This document shows, piece after piece, positions 9,001-61,021 of a stretch of 64,000 bases of DNA. A program made the translations under genes and the position numbers. Below the pieces are notes generated by a model. It had not been told where the DNA came from. It made no database searches and worked only from the letters and a program-made list of their open reading frames with translations. Numbering within the stretch: the first letter of the stretch is position 1; each line of letters opens with the position of its first letter. Source of the stretch: Methylocapsa sp. D3K7 (GTDB lineage Bacteria > Pseudomonadota > Alphaproteobacteria > Rhizobiales > Beijerinckiaceae); assembly GCF_029855125.1 (NCBI RefSeq), contig NZ_CP123229.1, positions 3,392,501-3,456,500 on the forward strand. The letters run 5' to 3'.

Positions 9001-10332
9001 GACAGTGCGATCGCGGCAGCAATGTTTTCGCTCCCCGGAGGCAGACTCGCTACGCTTTTGAGAATCGCTGCAAGTGTTTTCACTCCAAGAAGGGACAGAT
9101 CGGGGACGACCCCAATATAATTGGCGATCATGCTGGCGTAGGCGGCTAGTGCCGAGGCTTTGCTCGCAAGCGCCCGCAGGCGCGGAATTTGCCGCTGGAA
9201 ATCGGCGGGCTGCAAAGCAATCCGGCGGACGCCAAAATAGATATGCTGATTCAGAGGTCCGAAGTTCCCGGTGAGGTCAGCGAGACGTTCGATCAGCCGC
9301 GCTTTCGCCGCGAAGTCCTTGCCCGTCCAATGCGCCGCTTCCTCGACCAGCCGCGCGTCGGGCGTAAACCCGCGTGCCGCCGCCGCGATTTGGATCGACA
9401 GCGCTTGATACGGCGTCATGCCAGTATCGTTGATGGGAGCGTGCAGGCGTTTGGCAATGACATTCAGACGGTCGCGCACCCCAGCCTGCTGCATCGCCGT
9501 ATCGTCCATTTGCGCGAAACAGGCCGCTCCTTGCAAGGTGCGATCCAGCCTTTCGGCAACGAGGCGCTTGCCGACCGATTGGCTGTGGAGTTCGAGGCAC
9601 ATATCGTCGAGGCCCGCCGCGCGCAGCCGTTCGTGAACCACGTTGAGGGCTGCCATTTTTTCGGCAACGAACAGAACCGATTGGCCATCGTGCACGGCAG
9701 CCGCGATGATGTTTGTGATTGTTTGCGATTTGCCGGTTCCTGGCGGCCCTTGAACGACAAGATTGCGTCCAGCACGGACCGTTTCGATAACCCGTGTTTG
9801 CGAAGAATCGGCATCGACGACATGGACGAGGTCGATCGGCGCCAATATGTCGTCGAGCTTTGCGGTCTCGGGCAGAAGTGGAGGCTCGGCCGCGAATCCC
9901 TCACATAAAAGACCGCGCAAAAGCGGATGCGAGACCAAAATATTGTCCGGCCAATTGCTCGGTTCGAGATCGCGCACCATCAAAAGCTTTGAAAAGGAAT
10001 AGAAGCCAAGCTCAATCGCATTGACATCGATCGACCACCGCCGGTTCGCCGCCACGGCGGTGATGGTCGCGTCGAAATAATCCGACGGCAGCCAATCATC
10101 AGTTTCCGGAATGTTAGGAAGAGCGATCCCGAAATCGCCACGCAGCCTCTCCTGCAGAGCCTGATTGGTCGCGATGTCGTCCTCACGGAGTTTCACATCG
10201 AAGGCCGACCGTTTGGCATCGCGGACAAGCGAGACGGGCAGCAAAATGAGCGGCGCCTCGCGCGGCACATCGGATCTGTCATCCTCGTACCAGCGCAAGA
10301 AGCCGAGGGCGAGATAGAGGATATTGATGCCG
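6063..10332 (-). pseudogene. C-terminal part of a DUF4011-type SF1 helicase-nuclease, split by the island
   Basis: About 1417 codons remain, beginning in the attL repeat (ILY-LALGFLRWYEDD). The fragment has Walker A GPPGTGKSQTITNII near residue 190, Walker B LLVIDEASQV with GDKKQLPPTNF, and SF1 motifs WHYRSRHPSL and NVQGDERDVILIS. A Vsr/MTES_1575-like nuclease region follows (FKIDLAVRDP, LAIECDGATYHS, RDRLRQQVLENLGWRFHRIWSTDW), and the C-terminus looks like a DUF3320-type domain. Codons for the first 154 residues are at 61463-61003. The join through the 19-bp repeat is exactly in frame, so the gene was intact before island insertion. A TTG at 10298 could allow reinitiation, but this piece lacks its native start. 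Such multidomain helicase-nucleases are often suspected of genome defence; that role is inference. Confidence 0.9.
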
Positions 10333-10333
10333 C
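10315..10333 (+). repeat. attL core, 19-bp direct repeat
   Basis: TAGAGGATATTGATGCCGC is repeated exactly and in the same orientation at 61003-61021. On the minus strand it encodes part of the helicase sequence RGINILY. It marks the left junction of the island. Confidence 0.93.
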
Positions 10334-10447
10334 CATCCCATTGTTTGCGGGTGACCGTAGGTGTCTAGAAAGCTGCTGTGAAAACAGTTTATTAACCCGA
10401 GATGCATCTGTACATGTTCGTAGTAATCCGCCACAATCCGCGTCAAA

Positions 10448-10469
10448 TTGTAAGACCAATTGTAAGACC
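10448..10469 (+). repeat. Putative integrase arm-type sites, left end
   Basis: TTGTAAGACC occurs twice (10448-10457 and 10460-10469), 12 bases apart, preceded by ATCCGCCACAATC. A matching pair with the same spacing to a similar leader (ATCCGCCGCAATC) is at 60928-60947. Paired direct repeats near both ends of an element are the usual form of tyrosine-integrase arm sites. They also lie just upstream of the integrase start, where binding could regulate it. Confidence 0.6.
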
Positions 10470-10480
10470 GGATGACGGAA

Positions 10481-11689
10481 ATGGCACGGAGACAAACAAA
10501 TAGATTGACGGCGCGATTTGTAGCCACTGCGCCGCCTGGTGTTCATTGCGATGGGCGCGGGCTTTATCTTATCGTTTCGGAGACACTCGCCGGCAAGTGG
10601 GTGGCCAATCATTCACATAACGGCAAGCGTTTCCCAGGAACCGGTCTAGGCAGCAGAGATTATGTTGGGCTGGCTGAAGCCCGTGAAAAAAACGAAGCGG
10701 TCCGCAAGCTGGTGAAAACCGGCGGCGTTCCTGCGGAAACAAAACGCGAAGCTAAACGTCTCGCAGCTGGCACCCCAACGTTCGGTCAATGCGCGGATGA
10801 GCTTCTTGTCGCAAAGGCCAGTGAGTGGCGCCACGCAAAAACCTCGGCTCAGTGGCGCATGACTCTTGAGCGTTACGCGAAGCCGTTGTGGGCCTTGCCC
10901 GTAGACGAGATCGATACGCGGGCCGTGCTTTCCGTGCTGCAGCCGCTTTGGGTTACCATCCCCGAGACAGCCGCGAGGCTTCGCAACCGTATAGAGGCGG
11001 TGCTAAATTTTGCAAAGGCGCATAAGCTGCGAGCGGGCGAGAACCCAGCCGCATGGCGTGGCCACCTCGCTCTGATCCTTCCTAAGCGGCAAAAACTTAC
11101 CCGCGGCCACCATGCGGCTTTGCCCTATCGTGATGTTCGGGAATTCATAGCCGCGCTTCGTGAAATTAAATCAATTCCGACGATCGCTTTTGAGTTTCTA
11201 ATATTGACGGCAGCGCGCAGCGGCACGGTGCTTGGAGCGCGTTGGTCGGAGATTGATCTCGTCACGCGGATCTGGGTTGTCCCGGCTGCCAGGATGAAAT
11301 CCGGTGTCGAGCATAGGACTCCGTTATCTGCACGCGCAACTGAGATTCTTGAGCAGATGGCCGAGATCCGAAGCGGAGATTTTGTATTTCCCGGCCAGCG
11401 GCGTGGCCGGGGACTGGGGCAAGCGTCTCTTTGGCGAGTTTGTTCCGGTGCGGGGACGCCCCACGGCTTTCGCAGCACCTTCAGGGATTGGTGCGGGGAA
11501 GAAACGAGCTTTCCCCGCGAGGTTGCCGAGGCCGCTCTCGCCCATGTAGCGGGAGATGCCACTGAGCGGGCCTATCGTCGCGGTGATGCCTTGGAGAAAC
11601 GGCGCGGGCTAATGGAAGCATGGGCGGCGTTCTGTGAGCCTAAGGTGGGCTCGAATGTGGTGTCGCTCAGCCGGTACCAAGGGGCCTGA
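10481..11689 (+). CDS. P4-type tyrosine integrase of the island
   Basis: A 402-residue integrase that would cut and join the 19-bp core sites. An N-terminal arm-binding domain of DUF4102 type (LTARFVATAPPGVHCDGRGLYL, ending GLAEAREKNEAVRK) is followed by a core-binding region (TFGQCADELLVAKASEWRH) and the catalytic domain. Catalytic residues seen are Arg in TAARSG, the HGFR box (TPHGFRSTFRDW), a His in ALAHV and the Tyr in ERAYRR. ATG 10481 fits homologous starts (MARRQTNRLTARF); ATG 10472 is possible. Its place next to attL is standard for this class. Unlike most relatives it has inserted in a protein gene rather than a tRNA gene. Confidence 0.93.
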   Translation: MARRQTNRLTARFVATAPPGVHCDGRGLYLIVSETLAGKWVANHSHNGKRFPGTGLGSRDYVGLAEAREKNEAVRKLVKTGGVPAETKREAKRLAAGTPTFGQCADELLVAKASEWRHAKTSAQWRMTLERYAKPLWALPVDEIDTRAVLSVLQPLWVTIPETAARLRNRIEAVLNFAKAHKLRAGENPAAWRGHLALILPKRQKLTRGHHAALPYRDVREFIAALREIKSIPTIAFEFLILTAARSGTVLGARWSEIDLVTRIWVVPAARMKSGVEHRTPLSARATEILEQMAEIRSGDFVFPGQRRGRGLGQASLWRVCSGAGTPHGFRSTFRDWCGEETSFPREVAEAALAHVAGDATERAYRRGDALEKRRGLMEAWAAFCEPKVGSNVVSLSRYQGA

Positions 11690-11853
11690 CGCAAACGGCG
11701 GAAGCGCTTTCTTGTGAATTTCCCCTGTTCGCTCGCAAAGAACCGTTGGAAAAGCGCCAGCTACGCGCAATCGTGGACGCGCACGGATAGGCCCGTTAAA
11801 CCAAGAGCACTCTTGGTTTTCACGAGTTCCCCAGGGGAAGAGGGAGCGTGGAT

Positions 11854-12327
11854 ATGGTTGACGAAGATGACGTTGATGCGCCTGAGTGGGACGAACTGAG
11901 CACCCTCGCCAAATTGTTGCGGGACAAAAACCCGAAACCCGAACGCTATAGAGGCGAAAAGGGCAACGCCCTATGCGAACTGGATAAGCTGGAAGAATTT
12001 ATCCAGCGGCGGGATGCAACGCCAGCCGAGCGGGTGCGGGTCGGCGTGCAGCTTTGGCAACTAAATAAGACAATACTCGGTGTTGGCCCATTTTGCTGGC
12101 GTGACAGACGCCGCCCGCGTGGCGCAAAGGGTAAGGCGACCTATACTGAGATTGACGATCAAATCCTTAAGCGCGCCATCAACTCCAAGCCCTTGAAAGG
12201 TTCGCTCGGCGCCGCGCTACGCCCGCTCGTGGAGGAGGTTATGGATAAGGGGAGTCTGCGGCGGCTCCCGGTGGAGAGTCATATCAAGCGCTTGCGCACG
12301 TTGGCAAAGCGAAGGGGACTGGCTTAG
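11854..12327 (+). CDS. Hypothetical island protein (157 aa)
   Basis: An acidic start (MVDEDDVDAPEWDELS) is followed by a mixed charged region and a basic C-terminus (ESHIKRLRTLAKRRGLA). GAGGGA lies nine bases before ATG 11854; a GTG at 11848 is the alternative. I recognise no family. It lies between the integrase and an excisionase-like gene, where phage-like islands often carry regulatory or accessory genes, but no function can be assigned. Confidence 0.6.
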   Translation: MVDEDDVDAPEWDELSTLAKLLRDKNPKPERYRGEKGNALCELDKLEEFIQRRDATPAERVRVGVQLWQLNKTILGVGPFCWRDRRRPRGAKGKATYTEIDDQILKRAINSKPLKGSLGAALRPLVEEVMDKGSLRRLPVESHIKRLRTLAKRRGLA

Positions 12328-12428
12328 CGCCGATTAAAAATCTCTCGCATCCCCGGGGAATGCTAGTAGTTAAAGTGTCCTCGTGCGTCCGTCATCGACG
12401 GGACGAACCCAAACCCGAGGACGACTAT

Positions 12429-12671
12429 ATGACCTCAGCTTCCCATATCGCTGTCCGCTCGCCGTTAGGCGATGCGCCAGTCGGCAAGAAATCGACTGCA
12501 CTCAATTACCCGCGCGCGCGCCGTATCAATGACGCCTGCGACGCGCTGCAAATATCTAGAAGCCATCTGTACGCGCTCGCGGCCGTCGGGAAGATCAAAC
12601 TCATTCGGATTGGTAGCCGTACCCTTGTGCCTGAAGCAGAGCTCGATAGGCTCGTCGAGCAAGGGACCTAA
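12429..12671 (+). CDS. Helix-turn-helix excisionase-like protein (80 aa)
   Basis: The C-terminal half matches the HTH_17/excisionase pattern: RINDACDALQISRSHLYALAAVGKIK, then IRIGSRTLVPEAELDRLVEQGT, a winged helix-turn-helix with the usual closing helix. GAGGACGAC precedes ATG 12429; an upstream in-frame ATG at 12360 would add an unlikely Cys/Arg-rich leader. Small proteins of this kind act as recombination directionality factors or repressors. Its position near the integrase fits excisionase, which is inference. Confidence 0.78.
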   Translation: MTSASHIAVRSPLGDAPVGKKSTALNYPRARRINDACDALQISRSHLYALAAVGKIKLIRIGSRTLVPEAELDRLVEQGT

Positions 12672-12674
12672 GCC

Positions 12675-13169
12675 ATGATCGAAACAACAAACCCGGTCTG
12701 CGCTGGTAACGCGGCCGGGCTCGTAAGTTCGTTATGTTTGGTGGTTGACGGTTCAAAAGTTACGCTAAATCCCCTGCTGTCGCAAGGCGAATCAAGCGAT
12801 GCGGATGGAGGTCAGTTATTTCTGTCTGGCGACGTGGCCGTAGGAGTCCGCCCACGCGACGACCACCAAAAGAAATCCCGCGGCAATCCGCACCGCAGCA
12901 AGAGTCAACCTCGGCGCCTGGCGTCGTTAATTCTCAGCGAAGTCCGGCGATTGGTGCCCATTTGCCTCGCATCGCGCGGATACCTGGAGCCGGTCGATTG
13001 GGCCTACGCGATCGCCTACATTCTTGACAGCGCTGAGCCAGACGTGCGCGGCAAGCTGGCTAGGAGTCACCATACCAACTGCCCAAGGTCAGTGCCACCA
13101 AATCGACGGGCGATTGCTGTGGACTGGTGCCGCGAACTTTTCTGCCTCTTGGCTGAAGCGGCAGGATAA
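12675..13169 (+). CDS. Hypothetical protein (164 aa) next to the excisionase-like gene
   Basis: Starts four bases after the stop of the helix-turn-helix gene, so it is probably co-transcribed. The N-terminal half is low in recognisable structure. The C-terminal half has a helical region (LASLILSEVRRLVPICLASRGYLEPVDWAYAIAYILDSAEP) and ends VDWCRELFCLLAEAAG. No family is recognised. Confidence 0.5.
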   Translation: MIETTNPVCAGNAAGLVSSLCLVVDGSKVTLNPLLSQGESSDADGGQLFLSGDVAVGVRPRDDHQKKSRGNPHRSKSQPRRLASLILSEVRRLVPICLASRGYLEPVDWAYAIAYILDSAEPDVRGKLARSHHTNCPRSVPPNRRAIAVDWCRELFCLLAEAAG

Positions 13170-13446
13170 TGATTTGATCATAATCGAGAGTGCGGGGGCT
13201 AGGGGCTTTCAAGCGTGCGTTTGATGCGCGGTTTACCAGCGGCTATCCGTTGCAAAAAAATCAATCAATAAAGGAAGAGCGCCTCTAGACAATCAGATGG
13301 AATTATTCGAATTCAGCCACGATAACGGCTTATTTTAATTATTTGTTAACGATCAACCCTGTGTCCGGCGTCAGCACCTGTGAGACAGATTTAGCGGGTT
13401 GAATAACGGAGGATTTCTGGCTCATCGTAACCATCGAGGAGTGGAG

Positions 13447-13821
13447 ATGAGCCAGAAATCCGGAACTGCCAAGTCGTCCTCCGAGCGGATCGTGAAGGAC
13501 ATTCGCCGAGCAACGCGCAAGCAATATTCGGCGGAGGAGAAGATCCGCATCGTGCTGGACGGCCTGCGCGGCGAGCATAGCATCGCGGAACTCTGCCGGC
13601 GCGAGGGCATCGCCGAGAGCCTGTATTACACCTGGTCGAAGGAGTTCCTGGAGGCTGGCAAGCGGCGCTTGGCGGGCGACACGGCGCGTGCGGCGACCAG
13701 CGGCGAGGTCAAGGACCTGCGCCGGGAAGCTCAGGCACTGAAGGAGGTCGTCGCCGAGCAGGCGCTGGAATTGCGCCTGCTCAAAAAAAGCATGATCGCG
13801 GATGGGGAAAGCGAGGAATGA
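13447..13821 (+). CDS. IS3-like transposase OrfA, copy 1
   Basis: A 124-residue DNA-binding subunit. The helix-turn-helix (YSAEEKIRIVLDGLRGEHSIAELCRREGIAESLYYTWSKEFL) is typical of IS3-group OrfA, followed by a leucine-zipper-like helix (VKDLRREAQALKEVVAEQALELRLLKK). ATG 13447 follows GAGGAGTGGAG. The stop overlaps the OrfB start (ATGA). Confidence 0.9.
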   Translation: MSQKSGTAKSSSERIVKDIRRATRKQYSAEEKIRIVLDGLRGEHSIAELCRREGIAESLYYTWSKEFLEAGKRRLAGDTARAATSGEVKDLRREAQALKEVVAEQALELRLLKKSMIADGESEE

Positions 13822-14798
13822 GATATCCGGCTTCCGAGAAACTGGAGATCATCCGGCTGGTCGAGCAATCCCATCTGCCGGCGCGCCGGACGCTGGAGAA
13901 ACTCGGCGTCTCTCGCGCCACCTTTTATCGATGGTGCGACCTTTGCCAGACTGGCGGGCCAGAGGCCCTGGAAGACCGATCTCCCAGGCCCGACCGCGTC
14001 TGGAACCGAATTCCTGACAATGTGCGGGGCCAGATCGTGCAACTGGCCCTGGACGAGCCGGAGCTGTCGCCACGGGAACTGGCGACACGCTTCACCGACA
14101 CAAAAAGCTATTTTGTTTCGGAAGCTTCGGTTTATCGCCTGCTGAAGGAGCACGACCTAATCGCCAGTCCCGCCTACATCGTCATGAAGGCCGCCGATGA
14201 GTTCAAGGACAAGACGACGGCGCCCAACCAGCTCTGGCAGACCGACTTCACTTATCTCAAGGTGATTGGTTGGGGTTGGTTCTACCTCAGCACGATATTG
14301 GACGACTTCTCGCGCTACATCATCGCCTGGAAGCTCTGTACGACGATGAAGGTCGGGGACGTCACGGAAACACTCGACCTGGCGTTGCAAGCCGCGGGGC
14401 TTGATCACGCCAAGGTCGTCCATCGTCCGCGATTGCTCTCGGACAATGGCCCTTCCTACATCTCGGCCAATCTGGCCGAATGGCTGGACAAACGCAACAT
14501 GGATCACGTGCGCGGCGCGCCCTGCCACCCGCAAACACAGGGCAAAATCGAGCGCTGGCATCAGACGCTCAAGAATCGCGTCTTGCTTGAGAACTATTAT
14601 CTGCCCGGCGACCTGGAAGCCAGGATCGACACCTTCGTCGATCACTACAATCATCGCCGCTATCACGAGAGCCTGGACAATCTCACGCCGGCTGACGTCT
14701 ACTTCGGCCGAGGACAAACCATTCTGCTGCAACGAGAAAGGATCAAACGAGCCACCATCCAAAATCGTCGCTTGCAACACCAATTGAACGCCGCATAA
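13818..14798 (+). CDS. IS3-like transposase OrfB (DDE integrase), copy 1
   Basis: A 326-residue rve-type transposase. The N-terminal helix-turn-helix (LEKLGVSRATFYRWCDLC) is followed by the DDE core: WQTDFTYLKV (first Asp), LSDNGPSYIS (second Asp) and GKIERWHQTLKNR (Glu). The C-terminus YNHRRYHESLDNLTPADVYFG is a family hallmark. The frame is intact, and the protein is the same as that of copy 2. Confidence 0.93.
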   Translation: MRYPASEKLEIIRLVEQSHLPARRTLEKLGVSRATFYRWCDLCQTGGPEALEDRSPRPDRVWNRIPDNVRGQIVQLALDEPELSPRELATRFTDTKSYFVSEASVYRLLKEHDLIASPAYIVMKAADEFKDKTTAPNQLWQTDFTYLKVIGWGWFYLSTILDDFSRYIIAWKLCTTMKVGDVTETLDLALQAAGLDHAKVVHRPRLLSDNGPSYISANLAEWLDKRNMDHVRGAPCHPQTQGKIERWHQTLKNRVLLENYYLPGDLEARIDTFVDHYNHRRYHESLDNLTPADVYFGRGQTILLQRERIKRATIQNRRLQHQLNAA

Positions 14799-14872
14799 AA
14801 TCAAACATCAGATGAGCCGCGTCCTCCATTAAATCACGCCGCCATCTGTCTCAAATTATCTGACGACGGACA

Positions 14873-15244
14873 ATCGAAAAGGGCGATGACCTTCCGCATC
14901 ATGGCATGCACGGGTTCCGTTTCGTTGCCGACGGGTTGGGTCATCGAAATGACCCTGACGCCATGTTTAGCGAGCTTTCGGAGATAGAACTCCTGCTCGA
15001 ACACCTCTCGGAAGAACCGGCTATAGCTGTGAACGACAATACAATCGAACGCCTGCCCGCCATCGCAGGAGCGTTCGATCATCTGTTGGAAGGCAGGCCG
15101 ACGATCATCAGCGGCGGATGCGACCGCTTCTACGAACTCGGCCGCAAGAGTGCAACTGTTGGCGCGGCACCACGCTGTCAACTCCCTGCGTTGATCGGGA
15201 ATCGAAAGGTCGTGCTCGGCCTGCCGGCCAGTCGAGACGCGCAT
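14873..15244 (-). pseudogene. Serine recombinase, N-terminal fragment cut by the IS3-like element
   Basis: The residues MRVSTGRQAEHDLSIPDQRREL form the start of a large serine recombinase catalytic domain, with the nucleophile Ser in RVSTGRQ. VVHSYSRFFRE and YLRKLAKHGVRVISMTQ follow, as in the resolvase fold. The frame then runs into the IS end at 14872 and stops inside it, so the rest of the catalytic domain and any DNA-binding region are missing. The fragment cannot be functional. It shows that another mobile element or resolvase module once stood here. Confidence 0.85.
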
Positions 15245-15879
15245 ATAGAGCGCCGCTCGGGGGAGGAGGCAGACGATTCGTCTCGAAAGTCTGGTTTCTG
15301 GCGTTGGCGGTTCATCTGCAGTGTCTCGCTTTTCACAATCCCTCTTCGCACTGGGACGAGTCTTTGCCTACTATGGTTCCGCACAATCGGAGCCACTCCT
15401 TGCGCTAGTCTTTGCCCAGTATCTCATCCAATAAAGCGCCGAGAAAGGTCTCGATGGCGCAAAGCTCGTGATCCAGTACAGCGGGGATTTCGGGGAAATC
15501 GTCGGTGACTCTCAGTGCGGTTGTCGCGGCGGCCCTGGCACCAACAGGTCCAGTGGATGAGGCTTTATCGGGGGAGTGGACTCGATGAGGACAAGCCGCG
15601 CGAGCCACACGTTGGAGGTCGGCGGTTTTCCCCCAGCGGGGGCTGCGGGCCAGCTTCTGCGCCATGACTGTTGAGCGTGATGGGGATTCCTACCCCATGA
15701 CCAGCACCGAGCTTCCGTTGAACGACGGTTGTCGTCGCGACGAACGCCGGCTCCGTCCTGGCTAGCAAGAGGCAGGGACCCCGACACGAGAAGGATGGAA
15801 AACTGGAGTAGTCTCGTGCACTGTTGTGCTCGCCTGCGAATCAGCATGCGCATTGCCAAATGAACTCCCCAGAGGTCCC
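15245..15879. other. Gene-free stretch between recombinase remnant and recombinase module
   Basis: Open frames here lack ribosome-binding sites and family resemblance, and none stands out on either strand. I read it as decayed DNA with, near its right end, the promoter for the 15880 gene. Confidence 0.4.
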
Positions 15880-16668
15880 ATGCGGTTCATGGATATCCCG
15901 CCGTTTGAGCGGAACATCGAGATCCTCGATTTCGAGTTCTTTATAAGGAGCCGGCTAAATCAGGCGATCGTCATCTGGCCCGAGCAGGCCCTTCTACTCA
16001 TTGGCTACATGGGCTGGCCGAACGATGCTCAAGCGCGTGCTGAAGCCATTGCGATCGTGCGAGGCTGGCCAAAGGGCTCCAAGAGCATGCCGCCGCGGCT
16101 GCGCCAAACTCAATTCGATTGCGCGGGAGTCGCTGATATTTTCACGCGGCATTACGATTTGACCGTAAGTGGCCACCAACTCCATCGCGGAGGCCCAAGC
16201 CTCGGGAAAGCCATAGAATTAGCCGCTGCTCTATCGAGAATCGCGGGGATGGGCAAAGCCAATCTCTGGAAGCGGTGGGCGGCCTATAAGGATGTCGCGC
16301 ACCTTGTTACAGCTGCAACGATCATTTGCGCAGAAGCCCACGCAATAGCAAAGGTCAAGCCGTTGGGAGAATTTGGCCTTCCGCGAGGTCAGATTCAACT
16401 CTTTAATGTCGCGATGCTGATGCCGGATTTTGTTCTTTCGCTTGCTCTCTTCCTGCAGAACTATGGATTAGCGCACCGCCCGCAGGCCCGCGACGAACTG
16501 ATGCTCGACCCGGAGACATTATGGCGCATTAGTCCAGACATGAATATTTCAGAAATTGCACCACCCGTCCGCAAAATCAACCAGCAATGCATCGCCATTC
16601 TCAATGCGCGGCGAGCCGGTAACCGCGGCAAAAGACAGCATCGCGAGACTACTCCAATTTCCGGCTAA
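15880..16668 (+). CDS. Conserved-looking hypothetical protein upstream of the recombinase pair
   Basis: A 262-residue frame with normal composition: MRFMDIPPFERNIEILDFEFF, LLLIGYMGWPNDAQARAEAIAIV, a central basic region and a helical C-terminal half (LFNVAMLMPDFVLSLALFLQ). I recognise no domain. ATG 15880 was preferred to the first in-frame start at 15826 because the added residues look non-coding. It precedes a helix-turn-helix gene and two tyrosine recombinases on the same strand, so it may belong to that module. Confidence 0.6.
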   Translation: MRFMDIPPFERNIEILDFEFFIRSRLNQAIVIWPEQALLLIGYMGWPNDAQARAEAIAIVRGWPKGSKSMPPRLRQTQFDCAGVADIFTRHYDLTVSGHQLHRGGPSLGKAIELAAALSRIAGMGKANLWKRWAAYKDVAHLVTAATIICAEAHAIAKVKPLGEFGLPRGQIQLFNVAMLMPDFVLSLALFLQNYGLAHRPQARDELMLDPETLWRISPDMNISEIAPPVRKINQQCIAILNARRAGNRGKRQHRETTPISG

Positions 16669-16804
16669 AGATCGCGAAACCCCGTTCAGACTCAGCAAAT
16701 CTCCCAGACGGTGGTTGGGAACAAGCAGGGTCGGGCCGTCCGGGTTCAATTCCGCGAGCGCTGTTTCGACCAATTTCGTGTTCCTCGAAGAAAGGGTCGA
16801 ACAG

Positions 16805-17164
16805 ATGAAACCGCAATTTTCCGGGATTGATGATGGTCCCATGCCCGATTCGACGCTGGTGCCCTCGCCTTCAGGAGCGAGCGCTGTCCCGTCGAAACGG
16901 ACCCGTGCCCGCCGCGCCAAGTCTCCTGCCAGGAAGACGGCCCTCGGCCACGCGCACGCGCTGAGCGACGATCAGCACGCGCATGGGTTGATGGCCGAAA
17001 AATATTACACGGTTGAGGAGGTGGCCGACATCCTCAACGTTTCCCCGCGCACCGTTCGTCGGTGGGTCAGGACCAAAGTGCTCAAGTCGTACAAATTCGG
17101 CGTCGCCCGCCGGATTGCTTCTTCCGGTCTCCAGGCCCTTATTGCGCGGTCTTGCGACATCTAG
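16805..17164 (+). CDS. Helix-turn-helix protein of the recombinase module
   Basis: A 119-residue frame. The N-terminal half is Ser/Pro/Lys-rich and basic (SKRTRARRAKSPARKTA). The C-terminal half is a MerR/excisionase-type domain: KYYTVEEVADILNVSPRTVRRWVR, then KSYKFGVARRI and a closing helix. A start at ATG 16991 would give only the domain. It probably acts as a directionality factor or repressor for the recombinases 190 bases downstream; that is inference from position and fold. Confidence 0.7.
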   Translation: MKPQFSGIDDGPMPDSTLVPSPSGASAVPSKRTRARRAKSPARKTALGHAHALSDDQHAHGLMAEKYYTVEEVADILNVSPRTVRRWVRTKVLKSYKFGVARRIASSGLQALIARSCDI

Positions 17165-45808: not shown

Positions 45809-45816
45809 GCCTGGAA

Positions 45817-53071: not shown

Positions 53072-53316
53072 TTCGAGTAGCTCGGTCAGTGGCCAAATAG
53101 ATCACGTAACAAGTCTCCCAGAACGTAAGACTCTTGCCGCTGTGTCCAGCGTGAATTGCTTTGAAAATCCCTCTCGAACGAAGACAGTTCGAAGTGGAAG
53201 GTGCTCATGGTCGGAAATGCTCGGGGGTCGTGGAAAGATGGCTATCTCCCATATCGCGGTTCGCGTTCGAAGCGCAGATAGATTCGAAACTGGCGTCGCA
53301 GTTCTGATTGATCATT

Positions 53317-54498
53317 TCATGGATACAGCGCAGGCGGCAAGGCGGTAAGCGGTGCGATGAACGGCGTCGAATTGTTTCGTACGGCGAATCGCGTCGCGAC
53401 CTGACTGGTCACCGTAGCACCGGCAGTTAGGACGGTCACGTAAACATTGTACCATCCGTCGGCGAGGTTCGCCGGAACCACGTACTTATACGTGAGGCCA
53501 ATTTGGGAGGCGGCCGCGAGCGCACCTAGCGGCTGCACGTCGAAGGCATAGCATGGACTTCCAGAATAAGCGCAAATACCGATTTCATAGACGCCGCCGC
53601 TCGGGAGCGCGTTCGGGCCAACCAACGCTCCAGAATAAATGCTAAGCGTATCGCCCGCCTTCGCCGTGACCAGATACGGAACACTGGCGCCGTTCTGTCG
53701 GATCACGATGGAATTGAGCGAAATCGGGTTGGGCATTGCGCCTGCGGGTACCGGGTTAAACTGGTATGCCCTGATATAGTCGATGTCCATCGACTGCGGG
53801 AATGATGTGGACGAATTCGTGGATCCAGGCCATGTCCCGCCAACCGCCACATTGGCAAGGATATACATCGGGACATTTGGAATGTTCTGTCCAGTGTAAA
53901 CTTTCCTAGCTATACCGTCCACGAACCAAATGAGCTCGGTAGGCGTCCATTCCAGTGCGTAGGTGTGATAACCAGTGCTCAAGTCCATCGCCGAAGTGTA
54001 TTTGGTCTGATCCTGTGCGCCATTCCGGAAGTGCACTGTCATGTAGACGCTGGTCGTATCTTGCCCGTTGTTCTCCATAATATCGACTTCAGGTGGCCAC
54101 GCGCCGGAGCTCGGGAGCATCCAGAAACTCGGCCAAATTCCCTGGCCCTTCGGGATTCGCGCCCGCATGATGAAGTAGCCATAAGTCTGATCGAAATGCG
54201 CGAACGTCGTGATCGAGCAAGACGTATAGGCCATTCCGTTCCACATACGCCGATCTGCACGTAGGCGTCCCACGCTAGCTACATTGTCTCCCTGACAAGC
54301 GTCTGGAGTGTATGCTTGGAGCTCATTGTTTATGATGGTCGGGGTGGTGTAGTTATAGACCCAGAAGTTTGTTCCAATGCCACTCCATTGGAATTCGTAA
54401 TCGAACGTCTGGATCATAGTCGAGAGATCGGGCGGCACCTGAGCGAAAGCAGAGGTTGCACCGAGTAGGAAGATCGCGAAATTCAATCTAAGGAACAC
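53317..54498 (-). CDS. Secreted GH16 glycanase (right copy)
   Basis: 393 residues. Signal peptide (LRLNFAIFLLGATSAFAQV), GH16 domain with NNELQAYTPDAC, YGYFIMRARIPKGQGIWPSFW and active site EVDIMENNG, then YALEWTPTELIWFVDGI. The C-terminal domain with GICAYSGSPCYAFDVQ matches that of the left copy at 25792-26955. The two genes face each other across the polysaccharide core. It would cut beta-glucan-type linkages outside the cell; whether that is for release, trimming or remodelling is unknown. Confidence 0.92.
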   Translation of the reverse strand: MFLRLNFAIFLLGATSAFAQVPPDLSTMIQTFDYEFQWSGIGTNFWVYNYTTPTIINNELQAYTPDACQGDNVASVGRLRADRRMWNGMAYTSCSITTFAHFDQTYGYFIMRARIPKGQGIWPSFWMLPSSGAWPPEVDIMENNGQDTTSVYMTVHFRNGAQDQTKYTSAMDLSTGYHTYALEWTPTELIWFVDGIARKVYTGQNIPNVPMYILANVAVGGTWPGSTNSSTSFPQSMDIDYIRAYQFNPVPAGAMPNPISLNSIVIRQNGASVPYLVTAKAGDTLSIYSGALVGPNALPSGGVYEIGICAYSGSPCYAFDVQPLGALAAASQIGLTYKYVVPANLADGWYNVYVTVLTAGATVTSQVATRFAVRNNSTPFIAPLTALPPALYP

Positions 54499-54765
54499 GC
54501 TGCCTCACAGGGGATAGTGACCGGGATTTCCCAGGCATTTGGCCAAGATAAAGAGATGTCGCATTCCGCTATCTAACGGCGCCTCTTTGCGCGTCGGGGA
54601 AGCTTTTGGTTGTTCACTTTATAAGTGGCGGAAGAACTACCAATTGCTCCATAATTTGAGTTCGCCCGCGCGACGAGCGCCGCAGCCTATGCAGCCTGGC
54701 ATCAACGTAAAGGACTTTGGTTCACCAAGGATCCCGCCCAGCCTTCGGCCCTCGGATATCATCCG

Positions 54766-55008
54766 TTAGCCGAACCCAATCGGTGACAAAGGATCGATCG
54801 CATCGGCGATTTTTTTGAGCTCAAATGCCACTCTCCTGGCTTCGTCCGGGCAAAGCACAGTGTGAGAACGGTCGAGATCAATATGTACGTTGCCGTCAAA
54901 TCCGAGGATCGCGCCTCCGGAGACAAGGGCTACGGAATGATTAGGAATGTTTGTGCGCGTGCCGATAATCCGGTTGGTGAAGTGGGTAATGAACGTCAAT
55001 CTAGTCAA
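54766..55008 (-). CDS. Small protein of the VHIDLDR family (80 aa), right copy
   Basis: The block SVALVSGGAILGFDGNVHID, then LDRSHTVLCPDEARRVAFEL and KKIADAIDP, matches the left copy at 30406-30651. TTG start with GGAGG about eight bases before. The upstream minus-strand DNA is AT-rich (ATTTATATTATCAATC). Function unknown. Confidence 0.72.
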   Translation of the reverse strand: MTRLTFITHFTNRIIGTRTNIPNHSVALVSGGAILGFDGNVHIDLDRSHTVLCPDEARRVAFELKKIADAIDPLSPIGFG

Positions 55009-55286
55009 AACACTACCTCCGAAGTCCGCAAGACCGTCGGGTCGCCTTTGAATGATCTATGTATTATTAATATGTTGATTGATAATATAAATCACTAAAT
55101 ATAATAGCGATGCGACAATACGCCCTATCTAAGCCGCTTGAGAATTTGATTCACATAAAAAGAAAAAAAATACGAGCGCCACTTACGGCTCACGCGCTGC
55201 ATTATTGATTGGATATTGGCCTGCTCGGGAGGGCTAGTGTCCTGCGTCGAGGTGGCCGCACTACCGCGAGATTTATAGCGACGTCG

Positions 55287-55976
55287 TTACTCGACTTGTA
55301 AGAGCAGCGCGACGAGTTCGCTTTGCCGATGCGTATCGGTCTTGGCGAACACGGATTTCAATTGGTTGCGCGCCGTCTCGCGGGAAATTTTTAACTCGCG
55401 GGCGGCTATATCGGGAGGCGCGCCGCGCGCGATGATACAGGCTAGCTTGGCCTCTGCTGGTGTCAGACGGAACGTCTTGGCGATGATCGAAGCCGGCGGT
55501 CCGGGCTTTGGGCCCAAGGCATTCAATGTCAGGAGAGTGCGCACCGTCTGTGCCGCCTGATGTGGCGGCGACTCAAAGGGTATAATCCGCAGGATTACTG
55601 GTAATTTGTCGGCGCGGGGAACGATGACGGGCTCGAACGCCAAGGGATTCGGGCGGGGCGAACTGGTGAACTGGTCGATGACATGCTTCAGATGGGTTCG
55701 TGAGTCCAGATCACGAATGAACAGCCGCCGGTCTTTGATCCTGATATTTTCGTCGAAAACGATTTCGGCCGCAGCGTTCACTTCGACCACTAATCCCTGA
55801 TGGTCGAGGGTGATCGCGGGCAGGCGCATCGCGTTGAGCGCGGCGGTCGGAGAAGCCGCCGCTCCGCGTGCTCCAGAGACAGCCGCGATCTCCATCAAAC
55901 GGCGGCTGAAGGAAGCAAGGATGAGCTCTTCCTCGGCAGCCAAATTGCTGACTTCCGTCGTTGTGTCCAAATTCAT
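55287..55976 (-). CDS. LuxR-type regulator with PAS-like sensor region
   Basis: 229 residues. The middle part (LPAITLDHQGLVVEVNAAAEIVFDENIRIKDRRLFIRD) has a PAS-like pattern. The C-terminal LuxR helix-turn-helix is FRLTPAEAKLACIIARGAPP, then DIAARELKISRETARNQLKSVF and AKTDTHRQSELVALLLQV. There is no receiver domain or autoinducer domain. It is the only regulator near the right edge of the polysaccharide locus, so it might control that locus, without direct evidence. Confidence 0.85.
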   Translation of the reverse strand: MNLDTTTEVSNLAAEEELILASFSRRLMEIAAVSGARGAAASPTAALNAMRLPAITLDHQGLVVEVNAAAEIVFDENIRIKDRRLFIRDLDSRTHLKHVIDQFTSSPRPNPLAFEPVIVPRADKLPVILRIIPFESPPHQAAQTVRTLLTLNALGPKPGPPASIIAKTFRLTPAEAKLACIIARGAPPDIAARELKISRETARNQLKSVFAKTDTHRQSELVALLLQVE

Positions 55977-56087
55977 TCTTGATCCTAAACCACGATTAAT
56001 ATTTCGATGATTGATGAAATACGGAAATTGAGCATGTCTTGGGAACGAGGTGCCGTTGTCCCGCCTCGCCGGTCCAGCCCGCTAACT

Positions 56088-56426
56088 TCAATGCTTGGTT
56101 TGGAAGGGACTTTCGGCGGCCTCACGGATAATAACAGAGGCAATCTTATGCCACCGCGTGAGCAGGTCTTTAATCATCTCAATCCTTTGCTCATCGTCCG
56201 GTGAGTCAGCGTCAAGTGTGGTTATCTCTGTTAGTTCGGCAAGATGCCGCCGCAGCCGTCTGACATGGTTGCCGACCTTGGGGGCATCGAGCCCCTGCAA
56301 TGCAAGTATCTCCTCGCGGCCTCGTGCGCAGCCTGCGTCATAAGCTTCCTGCACAAGATTTCGAACTTCTTGGGTATTTGGTCGACGCTTCTCGTTCACG
56401 ATTCTCATAGCCCGCCTCAAATGCAT
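56088..56426 (-). CDS. Hypothetical protein (112 aa)
   Basis: Mostly helical and charged: RRAMRIVNEKRRPNTQEVRN, LVQEAYDAGCARGREEILAL, VRRLRRHLAELTEI and RIEMIKDLLTRWHKIASVI. The upstream minus-strand region contains TTATCATAAA. No family recognised. Confidence 0.5.
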   Translation of the reverse strand: MHLRRAMRIVNEKRRPNTQEVRNLVQEAYDAGCARGREEILALQGLDAPKVGNHVRRLRRHLAELTEITTLDADSPDDEQRIEMIKDLLTRWHKIASVIIREAAESPFQTKH

Positions 56427-56929
56427 GTATTTGAAACGTAATTGTAAGATTTATGATAACTGCGCACATTTAACATAACCCATTTAGGTTAATGTCAGAA
56501 GTTATTCATCGAAATTTGCCACATTTTGGTCTGGGGTGGATGTGCCGTTCGATAATGTGCCGGTTCCTCAATAAATGGGGCAGCGGCAGCTCCTCGGATT
56601 TGCACCCACCTGACGCCGCGCAAACTCCGCTACAATGCTCGACTTCTAACGAGACACCAAGCGCCTTGGCGCGCCTCAGGCCGAGGTTGTGAGTCTCTGG
56701 AAGGCGACCATTGTGATCGAGGGTCAGTAACCGGCGGACATATCGGACGAATTGCGACCCAAACTATAAACAACAAAACAGTTTAATATTAATAACTTAC
56801 ATGGCTACGGTGACAGGATTCGAACTATGACCTTCAGCCCTGTAGGTTCGTTCTCCTTTTGACCCGAGCCAAAAAATCACATAGCAATTTCAATGACATA
56901 GGTGTTCGCAGTTTTATCCTCACTGGCGC
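56427..56929. other. Gene-free stretch with a tRNA-3'-like fragment
   Basis: No convincing gene. Notable content is the tRNA-like sequence at 56802-56824, just left of the SRAP remnant. The left edge holds the promoter of the 56088 gene. Confidence 0.4.
56802..56824 (-). other. Possible tRNA 3'-end fragment
   Basis: Read on the minus strand it is GTTCGAATCCTGTCACCGTAG, then CCA: the T-loop consensus GTTCGAATCC followed by an acceptor-like end. The upstream T-stem half does not pair well and the rest of a tRNA is degenerate. It may be an old attachment site. Confidence 0.35.
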
Positions 56930-57286
56930 GCCTCGAGAAATTAAGCAGCCCTATTTCATCAGTGCTGCAAACGGTTCGGTATTATCGATTGCTGGCCTTT
57001 GGGATCGCTGGACAGACCCAGCAACCGGCGAGACGATTTCGAGTGCCACGTTAATCATCACCGCCGCAACGATTTCACGCACTGCATCCATGATCGAATG
57101 CCAGTCTTTCTCGACCAAGAGGATCATGACGCATGGCTAACGGGTAAGGCTGGCGTTGAAGTGTTGCGATTCGCGCCGAACGATCTATTGCGCCTGTGGC
57201 CGGTCTCGACACGGGTCAATAAGTCCGACCAAGGAGACGACGATCCAAGCTTGATTGAGGCCATCGAGGCCAGCAACATTGGCTAA
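56930..57286 (+). pseudogene. SRAP (YedK/HMCES-like) protein remnant
   Basis: The C-terminal half of an SOS-response-associated peptidase family protein. The first frame reads KQPYFISAANGSVLSIAGLW, then DRWTDPATGETISSATLIITAA. The frame then shifts by one base near 57070 and continues as DFTHCIHDRMPVFLDQEDHD, AWLTGKAGVEVLRFAPNDLL, WPVSTRVNK and DDDPSLIEAIE. The N-terminal catalytic Cys region is absent. SRAP proteins shield abasic sites in single-stranded DNA; this one cannot. Confidence 0.85.
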
Positions 57287-57346
57287 CTGGTTTTGGTCGC
57301 CGCCAATTTTTTCATCGCGGCGACGATCACAAGATCGCGAGTTATA

Positions 57347-58505
57347 CTAATGGCCCCGCGGGATGACTCATTGAGTGGATTCCCTTGGCGGCGGTTTTCT
57401 GATTCCCTTGGCGCGGAGGATTCGCGCCATGCCATCAGCGGTGAAATTGCGAGAGGACTATTTGGCCAAGGAGCTTCGGGTGTTGGCCCGGCGCTCAAAG
57501 AACGTCAACCAGAGTCGCCGGCTGTTATCGCTGGCGGCAGTGCGGGACGGGATGGATCGGAGGGCGGCGGCCAAGATCGGCGGGATGGATCGGCAGACGC
57601 TGCGCGACTGGGTCCATCGCTTCAACGCCACCGGGCCAGAGGGCCTCATCGACAACTGGACAGAGGGCCCCGCGCCGCGCCTGTCAGCCGCGCAGTTGGC
57701 CGAGTTCGCGACAATCGTCGAGGCCGGGCCGGATCGTGAGAAGGATGGCGTCGTGCGTTGGCGCCGGGTGGACCTCAGGCGCATCATCGCCGAGAGGTTC
57801 GGCGTCGACTTCCACGAGCGCTACGTTGGAAAGCTTTTGAAGAAGCTCGGCTTCTCGCACATCAGCGCAAGGCCGCGCCATCCAGCCCAGGACGAACAGA
57901 TCGTCGAGGCGTTCAAAAAAACTTCCCGCGCGCGCTGAAGGCTCATCTCGACAAACTGCCAGAGACGACGCCGGTCGAAGTCTGGTTCCAGGACGAAGCC
58001 CGGATCGGCCAGAAGAATGGCCTCGTCCGCCAGTGGGCCAGGCGTGGAACGAGGCCAAGGCAGCCCGCCGACCAGCGCTACGACAACGCCTATCTGTTTG
58101 GCGCGATCTGCCCCGCCCGCGGCGTTGGGGCGGCCCTCGCGTTGCCTTATGCGGACACCGGCATGATGCAGCTCCATCTCGACGAAATCTCGCACAACGT
58201 CGCCAAGGGTGCGCATGCCGTCCTGCTGCTCGACAGGGCCGGATGGCACACCACCAGCCAGCTCAACGTGCCCGAAAACATCACGCCGATCTTCCTGCCT
58301 TCGCGCGCGCCGGAACTGAACCCGGTCGAGAACATCTGGCAGTATCTGCGTCAGAACTGGCTCTCAAACACCGTCTTCGAAAATTACGATGCCATCATCG
58401 ACGCAGCCTGCGCCGCCTGGCGAAAGCTCATAGCCCAGCCTGAAACAATCACATCCATCGGGATGCGAGAATGGGCTCACGTCGGTCAGTCGCTATGACC
58501 TTTGG
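57347..58505 (+). mobile_element. IS630-family insertion sequence, copy 2 (1159 bp)
   Basis: Same ends and length as 32566-33724, flanked by TA (57345-57346 and 58506-58507). Inserted about 60 bases after the SRAP remnant. Confidence 0.9.
57429..58498 (+). CDS. IS630-family transposase with programmed-type frameshift, copy 2
   Basis: The products are the same as those of copy 1: helix-turn-helix in the first frame, A7 run, then the DDE core (VWFQDEARIG, LLLDRAGWHTT, ELNPVENIWQ) in the -1 frame. Confidence 0.88.
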
Positions 58506-58554
58506 TATTATAGGCTAGGGCTGGCCCCTAGCGGATGAGCTTTGTTTGGGGCGC

Positions 58555-58704
58555 TTATGGTCCCAAGCGATCAGACATGCAATCGGGTGCGGAGCAGGCG
58601 ATGGTCCGGGCTGGGTTTGAGAAATTCAGCGGTGATGTAGCTGTATAAATTGCGATGCCGACGGCAAGCGTGATTAGAAAAACGAGTAGTTCGCGGTCGA
58701 TCAT
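58555..58704 (-). CDS. Small membrane protein (49 aa)
   Basis: MIDRELLVFLITLAVGIAIY forms one membrane span, followed by a short polar tail (SPLNFSNPARTIACSAPD). GGGGGCTGGA lies directly before the ATG. The same frame could extend to 58788 but without a better ribosome-binding site. No family recognised. Confidence 0.45.
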   Translation of the reverse strand: MIDRELLVFLITLAVGIAIYTATSPLNFSNPARTIACSAPDCMSDRLGP

Positions 58705-58967
58705 TCCAGCCCCCGCCCATTGGTCGCAGAAGCCGGAACGTGACACCATTTGCGCAGCCTGAAAGAAGTGCACGGAAAAGTGCCGCAAAAATGACTTCTG
58801 TCAAAGTAACTTCAATTTATAATTAATTATTATCTTATATCACAACGTCCAACATGTTCCAAGCAAAAAGAAGCATAAATCGGCCACGATGACACTTTTA
58901 AACTTTCATCCTCCACGAAGCCTACGAAGCAATCAAGCAACAGGGAAACCATGGGAGAGGGGCGCAG

Positions 58968-59126
58968 ATGAATGTCCTCTACTGTATAATACTCTGGTGT
59001 GTGTTTAACCTGGCCCTGCTCTGTTTGCTGTTCATCCGCCACGTGATCCGCGATTGGTTACGGAATGGAAACCGCGAAGCGATTCTCCGACGTGATTTCC
59101 GTGCTGCAAGGAAAAACATAGCCTGA
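58968..59126 (+). CDS. Small membrane protein with basic tail (52 aa)
   Basis: NVLYCIILWCVFNLALLCLL is one membrane span; the tail FIRHVIRDWLRNGNREAILRR and RDFRAARKN is strongly basic. GGGAGAGGGGCG precedes the ATG. Shape alone suggests an inner-membrane anchor. Confidence 0.5.
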   Translation: MNVLYCIILWCVFNLALLCLLFIRHVIRDWLRNGNREAILRRDFRAARKNIA

Positions 59127-59278
59127 TCTTTCACAGTCGAGTCGATTCATCGCCGCGTTCCAAAAAATCGTCATCGTGTCCGCTGGCTTTCGCAGCACCA
59201 CCTAACACACGCTGATAATTCGCGACCGTGCATTCGGGCAGAGCGCCAATCTCGACTCCGGCATAGCGGCACCGCTTT

Positions 59279-59740
59279 TTAAAGTTGCAAGATGTCTTCG
59301 ACGATGCTGTCGGCGAGCTTGCCCTCCGTGGAGGCATATGACGCCTTCAGCTTGAGCCCGATGATCGACGTAGCCCGAGTGCTGGTCAGCCAGCGGACCT
59401 CCGCGTTCAGAATTTCCAGCGCGACTGCCTCGGCTGTTTTTGCGGCCTCGAGTGCCTCGCGTGTCATGATGCTTGGCTCGCGCAAATATGCTATCTGCGC
59501 CTCGTTGCGGCGCGCGATGGCATCGTGAAAAGCCTTCTCGGCTAAATCAACCTGTTCGGCTACGGCAAAAAGCTTGGCTTCTGGCTCTATTGCCTCAACC
59601 ATTCCGATCCCCGTGCTGCCATTTTTCGCAAACCACAAAATCGAACCTTTTCTGAAAGCCCATTCGACCTGCAACAAAGCGGTGCCGAGCGCCTTCGTCT
59701 TGGACGTCCCTTCCACGAGACGGAGGTTTGCTAGGGTCAT
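59279..59740 (-). CDS. Hypothetical protein (153 aa)
   Basis: A short beta-rich start (LRLVEGTSKTKALGTALLQV, FRKGSILWFAKNGS) is followed by a helical stretch (DLAEKAFHDAIARRNEAQIAYL, REALEAAKTAEAVALEILNA) with coiled-coil character. AGGAAG precedes the ATG at 59740, better than the first in-frame start at 59761. No family recognised. Confidence 0.6.
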   Translation of the reverse strand: MTLANLRLVEGTSKTKALGTALLQVEWAFRKGSILWFAKNGSTGIGMVEAIEPEAKLFAVAEQVDLAEKAFHDAIARRNEAQIAYLREPSIMTREALEAAKTAEAVALEILNAEVRWLTSTRATSIIGLKLKASYASTEGKLADSIVEDILQL

Positions 59741-60102
59741 GGCGATCTTCCTTTCTGGCATGAGCCGGCCGATGCGGAACGAGCCGCAAGGGGTAAATTG
59801 TACATGTTTTGTTCTAATCCTGAAGTTCTTTATTTGTTCTTAATGGAGCAATTCAAAACTGAGACGCGGTCCGACCGTGGAGACAACGCCCTAGCCTGAC
59901 CGAGCGCGCCGAGGATGCGGTCAATACGTTCGGTGTGCCCCGCGCAAGCGCAGCGGCATGCAGTGAGATCGACTACGCACCACGCTTGTCGGTGTGGCTA
60001 TTGGGTTGTTGCATTGTGCCGTAATGAATTTATAACAGAAATCACTATCATTCTATAGCTATACCTTTGCTGTAAAATCCTTATTTCAAAGGAGGGCCTG
60101 GA
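59741..60102. other. Intergenic region, no gene seen
   Basis: No convincing frame. The right end is AT-rich (GAATTTATAACAGAAATC) and ends with AAAGGAGGGC, so it probably holds the promoter and ribosome-binding site of the 60103 gene. Confidence 0.45.
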
Positions 60103-60420
60103 ATGGCCATTTTAATAGCGGGAGGCATCCTATTAGGGATGATTCTTTCGCAATTCCTCAAATGGTATGCTCTTTTTCCGGTTTGCGTGTTCGCCTTTGT
60201 GCTGGCTTTTGCCGACCCCGCTCATATGAACGGCTTTCTCGGCTGGTTTATTCAGTTCGTTGCGCTGACAACGAGCCTCCAAATCGGCTATGTCATTGGC
60301 TTGTTAACGGGCTACGTCCGTCAAGCCCCCGCGCGTTCGAGGAATCCCAGCGTCCACGATCTCGACGCTACTGCGTCAAGTGACGCTGAGATCCGTAAGA
60401 ATGGCAGGAGAGCGGCATAA
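60103..60420 (+). CDS. Small membrane protein (105 aa), right copy
   Basis: Membrane spans AILIAGGILLGMILSQFL, ALFPVCVFAFVLAFA and WFIQFVALTTSLQIGYVIGLL, then a polar basic tail. AAAGGAGGGCC precedes the ATG. Resembles the 95-residue protein at 30767-31054. Unknown function. Confidence 0.68.
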   Translation: MAILIAGGILLGMILSQFLKWYALFPVCVFAFVLAFADPAHMNGFLGWFIQFVALTTSLQIGYVIGLLTGYVRQAPARSRNPSVHDLDATASSDAEIRKNGRRAA

Positions 60421-60519
60421 TTTTAATTTGCCATCTGCCGCTTCACGCCAGACGACAGAATCTCGCTATTGGCAAATTGATCCTCGAGTGATTTTTTTTA
60501 AAAATTCATTTGGCCTACG

Positions 60520-60792
60520 ATGACTGATCACGACAAACTCAAAAAGGAATTGGCTGTGGCGAATGCCACGGCAATGTTTCAAAACCTGGCAATCGTCGGT
60601 GCACTGGCCGAGTGTCATCTTGTCGACCCAACCAATATAGCAGGATGGGCCGAATTCTTCGCCACGGGGATGGAAAATAGCGCGCTAGGCGGCTCCGCCC
60701 ATTTGCAGCGCCCGCGGAAAGTAGCAGCCCGACTGCGCAACTATGCCAGACAGCTCGTGAGCATTGTGAAGACGCAAGAAAATTCGAAGTAA
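60520..60792 (+). CDS. Hypothetical protein (90 aa)
   Basis: A helical product: HDKLKKELAVANATAMFQNL, AIVGALAECHLVDPTNIAGW and RPRKVAARLRNYARQLVSIV. Last gene before the right end of the island. No family recognised. Confidence 0.5.
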   Translation: MTDHDKLKKELAVANATAMFQNLAIVGALAECHLVDPTNIAGWAEFFATGMENSALGGSAHLQRPRKVAARLRNYARQLVSIVKTQENSK

Positions 60793-60927
60793 TGCGCCTT
60801 TTAAGCTTGCCGGATCGCGTTCCGCCACATTAGCAGGCGCTTTCCCATTTCCGATTTCTGCTTACCGGGCGCTGGGTTAAATTGTTCGCCGCTGTCCGCA
60901 TTTATCCGCCGCAATCACCGCTCAAAA

Positions 60928-60947
60928 GTAAGACTAATTGTAAGACT
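60928..60947 (+). repeat. Putative integrase arm-type sites, right end
   Basis: GTAAGACT at 60928-60935 and TTGTAAGACT at 60938-60947, 12 bases apart as at the left end and preceded by ATCCGCCGCAATC. Confidence 0.6.
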
Positions 60948-61002
60948 GCTGCTGGCAGGTGAAACAAAAAGTATTTAATATCAATATATTATGCCACGTG
61001 TG

Positions 61003-61021
61003 TAGAGGATATTGATGCCGC
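61003..61021 (+). repeat. attR core, 19-bp direct repeat
   Basis: Exact copy of 10315-10333. Marks the right junction of the island. Confidence 0.93.

Follow-up and report, generated by a model that had tools for sequence, protein, structure and literature searches.

A polysaccharide island in a PDC-S37-type helicase-nuclease gene of Methylocapsa, probably placed there by an integrase retargeted from tRNA-Ser

Introduction

Mobile elements that split a host gene include the regulated gene integrity elements that Mageeney et al. (2020) reportedly described. Among 1,757,053 mapped islands, 43.4% lie in coding genes and 33.8% in tRNA or tmRNA genes (PMC12424338). The account of the helper-embedded PICIs (HE-PICIs) places their integrase clade within a larger group formed with PICIs and satellite P4, and describes repeated targeting and disruption of protein genes, with no replacement sequence in attP (the attachment site of the element), as well as one group, with a very similar integrase, that sits in a tRNA gene; tyrosine integrases, according to the same account, tend to need identity over about 7 bp (PMC10111431). 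Here we examine a 64,000-bp stretch of the single-contig genome of Methylocapsa sp. D3K7 (the whole stretch is called the window, and positions count from its first letter), in which a 50.7 kb polysaccharide island (10334..61021, including one copy of a 19-bp repeat) separates the two parts of a helicase-nuclease gene of PDC-S37 type. We conclude, with a probability of about 0.87, that this is a mobile island that integrated site-specifically into the coding gene, its element having been retargeted from tRNA-Ser to a protein gene.

The locus resembles the HE-PICIs in that protein genes are disrupted and attP holds no replacement sequence, whereas theirs are prophage late genes with another attP motif and the genes here are other genes of Beijerinckiaceae-type genomes with the motif TGGCGGA-N7-TCCGCCA (PMC10111431). 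With regulated gene integrity elements, as cited in PMC12424338 and PMC10111431, it shares a split host gene that exact excision would restore; the difference is that regulated excision is a prediction here. As with prophage phiSa3 in hlb, a coding gene is inactivated by integration, but in this case by a sugar-coat island with a tRNA-type integrase, and in a putative defence gene (PMC6597384). tRNA-Ser islands of the same family have in common with it the integrase family, the layout of the attachment core and its distance to the integrase gene (int), and differ in that a protein gene supplies the overlap here and is broken. The target gene has the DUF4011, helicase and nuclease domain layout of Hhe and ProA (NCBIfam) and of PDC-S37 (PADLOC), and in P. 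aeruginosa one of the core genes at the flanks of a defence hotspot is a DUF4011 gene (PMC10250203).

How site-specific integrases switch targets is an old question, which needs close integrases with different mapped sites, and the locus would also be a naturally occurring case in which the arrival of a mobile island breaks a candidate anti-phage gene. Neither a TGGCGGA-N7-TCCGCCA core family nor an island in a PDC-S37/Hhe-type gene was met in narrow literature searches; what is new here is the explanation of site choice through the integrase-family core, together with the sister cases.

The attachment core at the island ends

The island is bounded by two plus-strand copies of the 19-bp repeat TAGAGGATATTGATGCCGC, attL at 10315..10333 and attR at 61003..61021. 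Allowing up to three mismatches, the window holds two copies of the repeat, compared to 0.03 expected from shuffled sequence; with up to two mismatches, two is also the total for the whole 4,151,390-base genome, a reversed-pattern control giving none. An earlier, sequence-only reading of this DNA had allowed that the repeat might prove a common sequence unrelated to integration, which these counts contradict; a chance repeat is likewise ruled out by the uniqueness of the pair in window and genome. Read on the minus strand, the repeat covers the codons of RGINILY, where that reading had placed it within a DUF4011-type helicase, as is borne out by the positions, the strand and the division of the Pfam domain. 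int (10472..11689, plus strand; 405 aa) starts 138 bp after attL and encodes a tyrosine integrase with Arm-DNA-bind_3, Phage_int_M and Phage_integrase all above the Pfam cut-off, which is the P4-like integrase domain set. The locus thus combines direct repeats, an integrase beside one of them and, as described below, an empty site in relatives, which together characterize an integrated island.

Related integrases share a core, TGGCGGA-N7-TCCGCCA, located 138-186 bp 5' of int. When 60-260 bases 5' of the window's int were scanned with TGGCGGA and TCCGCCA as targets and a 7-base spacer, the best core position fell exactly on the first base of the repeat, at -157 and thus within the family range. 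This core, TAGAGGA-TATTGAT-GCCGCCA, has imperfect half-sites that match the consensus at 11 of 14 bases (5 + 6). Scores of at least 11 occur at 9.4e-5 of window positions, or about 2% over the whole stretch scanned, and the coincidence of the best core with the repeat is a stronger point than the core score itself. The 19 bp accordingly consist of the left half-site TAGAGGA, the proposed 7-bp overlap TATTGAT (10322..10328, plus strand, assigned by its position in the family core) and the first five bases of the right half-site. Because the int-side copy continues with CA and the far copy with GC, attP would read TAGAGGA-TATTGAT-GCCGCCA and the host site, attB, TAGAGGA-TATTGAT-GCCGCGC.

Next to int, a 54-bp stretch with two ATTGTAAGAC repeats (10415..10468, plus strand) aligns with a stretch adjoining attR (60893..60946, plus strand) at a score of 63, compared to 40 for the best of 200 shuffles. 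We propose that both hold arm-type sites, since similar stretches at the two island ends would be expected if such sites had flanked one attP.

The split gene

The C-terminal part of the PDC-S37-type gene occupies 6063..10333 on the minus strand, where in-frame reading continues through the repeat; its open frame, 6063-10298, encodes 1411 aa. The N-terminal part (61003..61463, minus strand) ends in foreign codons within the frame 60981-61463, giving a 160-aa piece that terminates in RGINILYTRGIIY-stop. The minus strand there reads ...EEERGINILYTRGIIY-stop, and the left half resumes at ...GGINILYLALGFLRWYED.... Joining the flanks by script over one repeat, with the island removed, yielded a single stop-to-stop frame of 1601 codons running through ...EEERGINILYLALGFLRWYED...; the earlier claims that removal restores the frame, and that excision would therefore restore the gene, are correct in silico. 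Pfam DUF4011 is divided between the halves, with profile positions 1-101 on the right and 108-158 on the left, and the left half further matches AAA_11/12/19/30, MTES_1575 and DUF3320.

Across the two parts, the PADLOC profile PDC-S37 is matched over its full length, at 1530 bits by the C-terminal part (profile 132-1527) and 77 bits by the N-terminal part (profile 4-126), in keeping with 1617-1674 bits in three intact congeners. The same sequences miss both NCBIfam cut-offs, with 886 bits for the C-terminal part and 931-954 for the three congeners against the 2000 bits of Hhe (NF042953), and 1207 and 1280-1321 against the 1500 bits of ProA (NF058533), and we therefore file the gene as neither. 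PDC-S37 is listed in PADLOC as a candidate only, and an anti-phage role is a candidate function suggested by profile matches. The sequence-only reading had described the inactivation of a large putative genome-defence or repair gene; the broken helicase-nuclease gene stands, while the defence part comes down to these profiles.

The attP supplies no substitute for the missing remainder of the gene; integration therefore breaks it. Six foreign residues close the N-terminal piece, and in the C-terminal piece no in-frame ATG, GTG or TTG occurs from the upstream stop to the TTG at 10298; the gene should accordingly be off while the island is resident, and any anti-phage function would presumably be lost with it. 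Searched with the left half, the genome yielded no second copy of the gene.

Uninterrupted genes in relatives

If close relatives all carried the same split gene, the sequence-only reading would have fallen, as it had said itself. Comparison genomes and loci are referred to by G and L numbers. Among 14 congeneric genomes (G001-G014), the junction is uninterrupted in 10 (G001, G002, G004, G005, G007, G009, G010, G011, G013 and G014), which rules out a naturally split gene. Some of these genes are damaged or truncated further downstream: that of G004 has one stop, those of G002, G007 and G011 match partially, and that of G005 runs off its contig. In the remaining congeners, the gene is a 55-residue fragment in G006, lacks its N-terminal part in G003 and gave no match in the congener search in G008 and G012. 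The loss in G003 (L022, G003:C327, around 650-700) is at a different place, with prfA upstream; with no integrase or core at its junction, it was rejected as a second insertion. One of the comparison loci is L007, from Methylocapsa sp. bog_942 (81% identity), where the gene is uninterrupted. There prfA (93% identity) adjoins the gene as it adjoins the right half in the window, which identifies the two as the same locus.

A wider sample of 397 genomes of the order, with two candidates scored per genome, held 75 genomes matching PDC-S37 at 1e-10 or better, many of the matches being more distant Hhe-like genes or fragments. Among them, a split at the motif occurs in the gene of the window and in no other. 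The gene is thus not supported as a preferred target of many islands. Nor is the site conserved as DNA, the 7-bp overlap being identical in one of 12 distinct aligned relatives (L011), so that the 'conserved motif' of the sequence-only reading is apt for the protein but not for the DNA.

The damaged or missing gene in several congeners (G003, G004, G006, G008 and G012) raises the alternative that the gene was already broken or decaying, and that the insertion was neutral in a dead gene. However, the joined frame has no other stop in its 1601 codons, and Ka/Ks against L007 is low, at 0.109 (928 codons) and 0.129 (147 codons) for the two halves; we consider this alternative distinctly unlikely. 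With G010 as outgroup, non-synonymous to synonymous changes number 112:163 on the window branch and 69:125 on the bog_942 branch (9:23 and 6:14 in the N-terminal part). Relaxed selection is not supported by these counts, taken without a significance test, and there is no clear decay of the split gene, as for a recent insertion or an often-restored gene.

The same data bear on regulated gene integrity, in which the insertion would be kept because its regulated excision turns the helicase-nuclease on and off, to the advantage of either the island or the host. This extends our reading of a retargeted island and is compatible with it. The gene is disrupted without replacement and exactly restorable in silico, neither half has a stop, and the Ka/Ks values against L007 are low; yet a recent insertion accounts equally for intact halves, and the branch counts do not decide. 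As an explanation for the insertion being kept it appears unlikely, and the split gene is at this stage a candidate for regulated gene integrity.

The integrase family and its tRNA-Ser core

We collected relatives of the window's integrase from three overlapping samples (99, 397 and 397 genomes, with differing E-value limits) and from 39 genomes of the genus of G631. Part of the matches were fetched as loci, and the tally covers these: 72 distinct integrase loci, the window included and L002-L004 and L060-L063 excluded, grouped according to the sequence that precedes int. The TGGCGGA core precedes 33, while 15 lie directly at a tRNA-Ser 3' end, 5 at tRNA-Pro and 6 at a tRNA-Pro 3' fragment; 11 are other, one has too little upstream sequence, and one is the window. 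Viral contigs contributed five integrase relatives, among which L059 alone is in the tally.

In all 10 cores tested among the 33 (9 genomes, tRNAs found by pattern), N7 equals a tRNA-Ser 3' end of the same genome, which indicates that the family typically targets tRNA-Ser. For five of the loci (L030, L101, L094, L036 and L100), the matching tRNA-Ser shares contig and strand with int and is 8-63 kb downstream of it, which fits the expected far end of an element; for L095, L096 and L097 a different contig carries it. In G008, both elements have a nearest downstream tRNA-Ser that differs from N7 by one base. There (L032 and L120, G008:C1), the overlaps GACGGAG and GAGGGAG are each matched by the tRNA-Ser closest to the other of the two elements, as if exchanged.

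The window departs from this pattern: it contains no tRNA, and its attachment site lies inside a coding gene rather than at a tRNA 3' end. The tRNA-Ser-like overlaps found by pattern in its own genome are AGAGGTG, GGGAGCG, GAGGGGG and GACGAGG, none of which equals TATTGAT; a fifth hit was not tRNA-like, and the pattern would overlook a tRNA-Ser whose 3' end differs. Because TATTGAT matches no tRNA-Ser found in the genome, the element appears to have switched its target from tRNA-Ser to a protein gene. The remaining homologues of this integrase in the genome adjoin tRNA-Asn, tRNA-Met and tRNA-Thr. In a tree of 59 rows, the window's integrase groups with L033 (tRNA-Ser), L112 and L115 (tRNA-Pro), L102 and L105, and its end branch is long (0.63 compared to a median of 0.29). 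Integrases about 50-62% identical to it are found at tRNA-Ser, at tRNA-Pro and at an apparently intergenic site, with int close to the core in all. The sequence-only reading had called the integrase P4-type, with tRNA genes as its usual targets, and both the domains and the family agree; the coding site it thought unusual is not so among islands at large, and is so within this tRNA-Ser family, though not uniquely.

Taken together, we conclude that the polysaccharide island probably integrated by site-specific recombination into the PDC-S37-type coding sequence and now splits the gene. Its integrase lineage uses inverted half-sites (TGGCGGA...TCCGCCA) round a 7-bp overlap that normally comes from a tRNA-Ser 3' end, and the attP of this element would carry the overlap TATTGAT with partly altered half-sites, matching the host codons for RGINILY. 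Exact excision by Int, possibly with an HTH_17 protein (12360..12671, plus strand, 103 aa) as recombination directionality factor, could then restore the gene.

Several points weigh against this reading. The host attB agrees with the family core at only 9 of 14 bases and the window's own core is imperfect; 74 of the 75 PDC-S37-matching genomes of the order sample show no split at the motif; and support for the window's tree grouping is 91/71, not starred. The closest other integrase, among the best 7999 candidates, is 66% identical; as nothing closer was found, nor any integrase at this very site, there are no intermediates to bracket the retargeting.

Some of these points would suit a simple off-target landing, in which an island normally resident at tRNA-Ser struck the helicase gene once as a secondary site, its attP unadapted: the samples hold no second case at this gene, the family is mostly at tRNA-Ser or tRNA-Pro, and attB resembles the core poorly. 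Against this, each end of the island has 19 bp in common with the host, and these take in the entire left half-site. By the accepted mechanism, an unadapted attP should leave TGGCGGA on the island side of attR, where TAGAGGA is found instead. In addition, the four pattern-found tRNA-Ser-like sites carry no homologue of this integrase, homologues being the only kind sought, so that an occupied tRNA-Ser forcing use of a secondary site is not supported either. We therefore regard an off-target landing as very improbable, and retain a retargeted element as our reading.

Sister insertions in other protein genes

At four further loci related integrases lie in or beside broken protein genes, two with both halves of the gene seen and two with one. 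In G631 (L122, G631:C58:66000-85999), a YifB/ComM-type gene is interrupted within RAPHHSAS, and int adjoins its first half; CCACCATTCCGCCTC is repeated 9.36 kb further on (5907 and 15267), followed in frame by the second half, and the halves match TIGR00368 at profile positions 5-276 and 271-499. In G606 (L123, G606:C21), a 17-bp repeat 9.47 kb apart (3046 and 12513) splits a gene at MAELRA; the second half of this gene matches SNase below the threshold (17.6 bits, cut-off 21). The stretches at the two ends of the G606 element are alike (44 compared to 38), as in the window, and those of the G631 element show no end-to-end similarity (22, with a shuffle median of 24). The integrases of these two elements are 73% identical and sisters in the tree.

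In G693 (L154, G693:C98, near 1510), int adjoins the first ~151 residues of MotA (TIGR03818). The far half of motA was not found on the contig, which extends 8.7 kb beyond the start of int; a second match of 13 bp leads into another gene and was rejected as the far end. In G703 (L155, G703:C2, near 1262), int adjoins FlgF without its first residues; the only second copy found is an 11-bp match 14.9 kb away, and the far flgF half was not found. The apparently intergenic site mentioned above is that of L102 (G031), with a 16-bp repeat.

These sister insertions suggest that a change of target, also into protein genes, recurs in the family, and since related integrases, including the 73% identical pair, occupy different sites, the determinants of target choice are directly testable. 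The locus is best viewed as the work of an integrase clade that changes targets. A more ambitious proposal would combine two statements: that a tRNA-Ser lineage with a modular core (conserved half-sites, free 7-bp overlap) re-aims repeatedly, including at codons of defence, DNA-uptake and motility genes (PDC-S37, yifB/comM, motA, flgF and the SNase-like gene), and that the split is a reversible off-switch that lowers the barrier to foreign DNA for as long as the island stays in place. This combination we hold to be doubtful.

Cargo of the island

To the left of the island the G+C content is about 59-63%, and inside it 45-60%. The cargo includes a Wzx/Wzy-type exopolysaccharide cluster, in agreement with the 'polysaccharide island' of the sequence-only reading: an initiating undecaprenyl-phosphate glucose phosphotransferase of WcaJ type (40169..41698, plus strand), a Wzc-like kinase (Wzz/GNVR/AAA_31 protein; 36995..39310, minus strand), a flippase (Polysacc_synt_3, Wzx type; 46704..48161, plus strand) and a Wzy_C polymerase/ligase (48201..49646, plus strand), the polymerase call resting on PF04932 Wzy_C, with an NCBIfam Wzy match far below cut-off. 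A WecG/TagA/CpsF glycosyltransferase (42693..43472, plus strand) and a GH10 glycosidase (49677..50777, plus strand) accompany them, as do further glycosyltransferases, a GH16 enzyme and an acyltransferase. No plasmid DNA resembling the WcaJ gene at high identity was found.

Two frames have weak PADLOC matches, CARF-like at 55287-55976 (minus strand, 21.7 bits) and mad1-like at 16556-17164 (plus strand, 27.2 bits, in the HTH part), and we do not count them as defence genes. Two large tyrosine recombinases (610 and 367 aa) stand in a row with an HTH_17 protein at 16556-20208, and the three possibly form a separate recombinase-based element. The island also holds three pairs of same-length frames (13818-14798 and 24342-25322; 31313-32404 and 35308-36399; 32977-33717 and 57758-58498). 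Every frame scanned, namely the first of each pair and also the second of the third pair, is a transposase, which indicates that the island has gathered insertion sequences.

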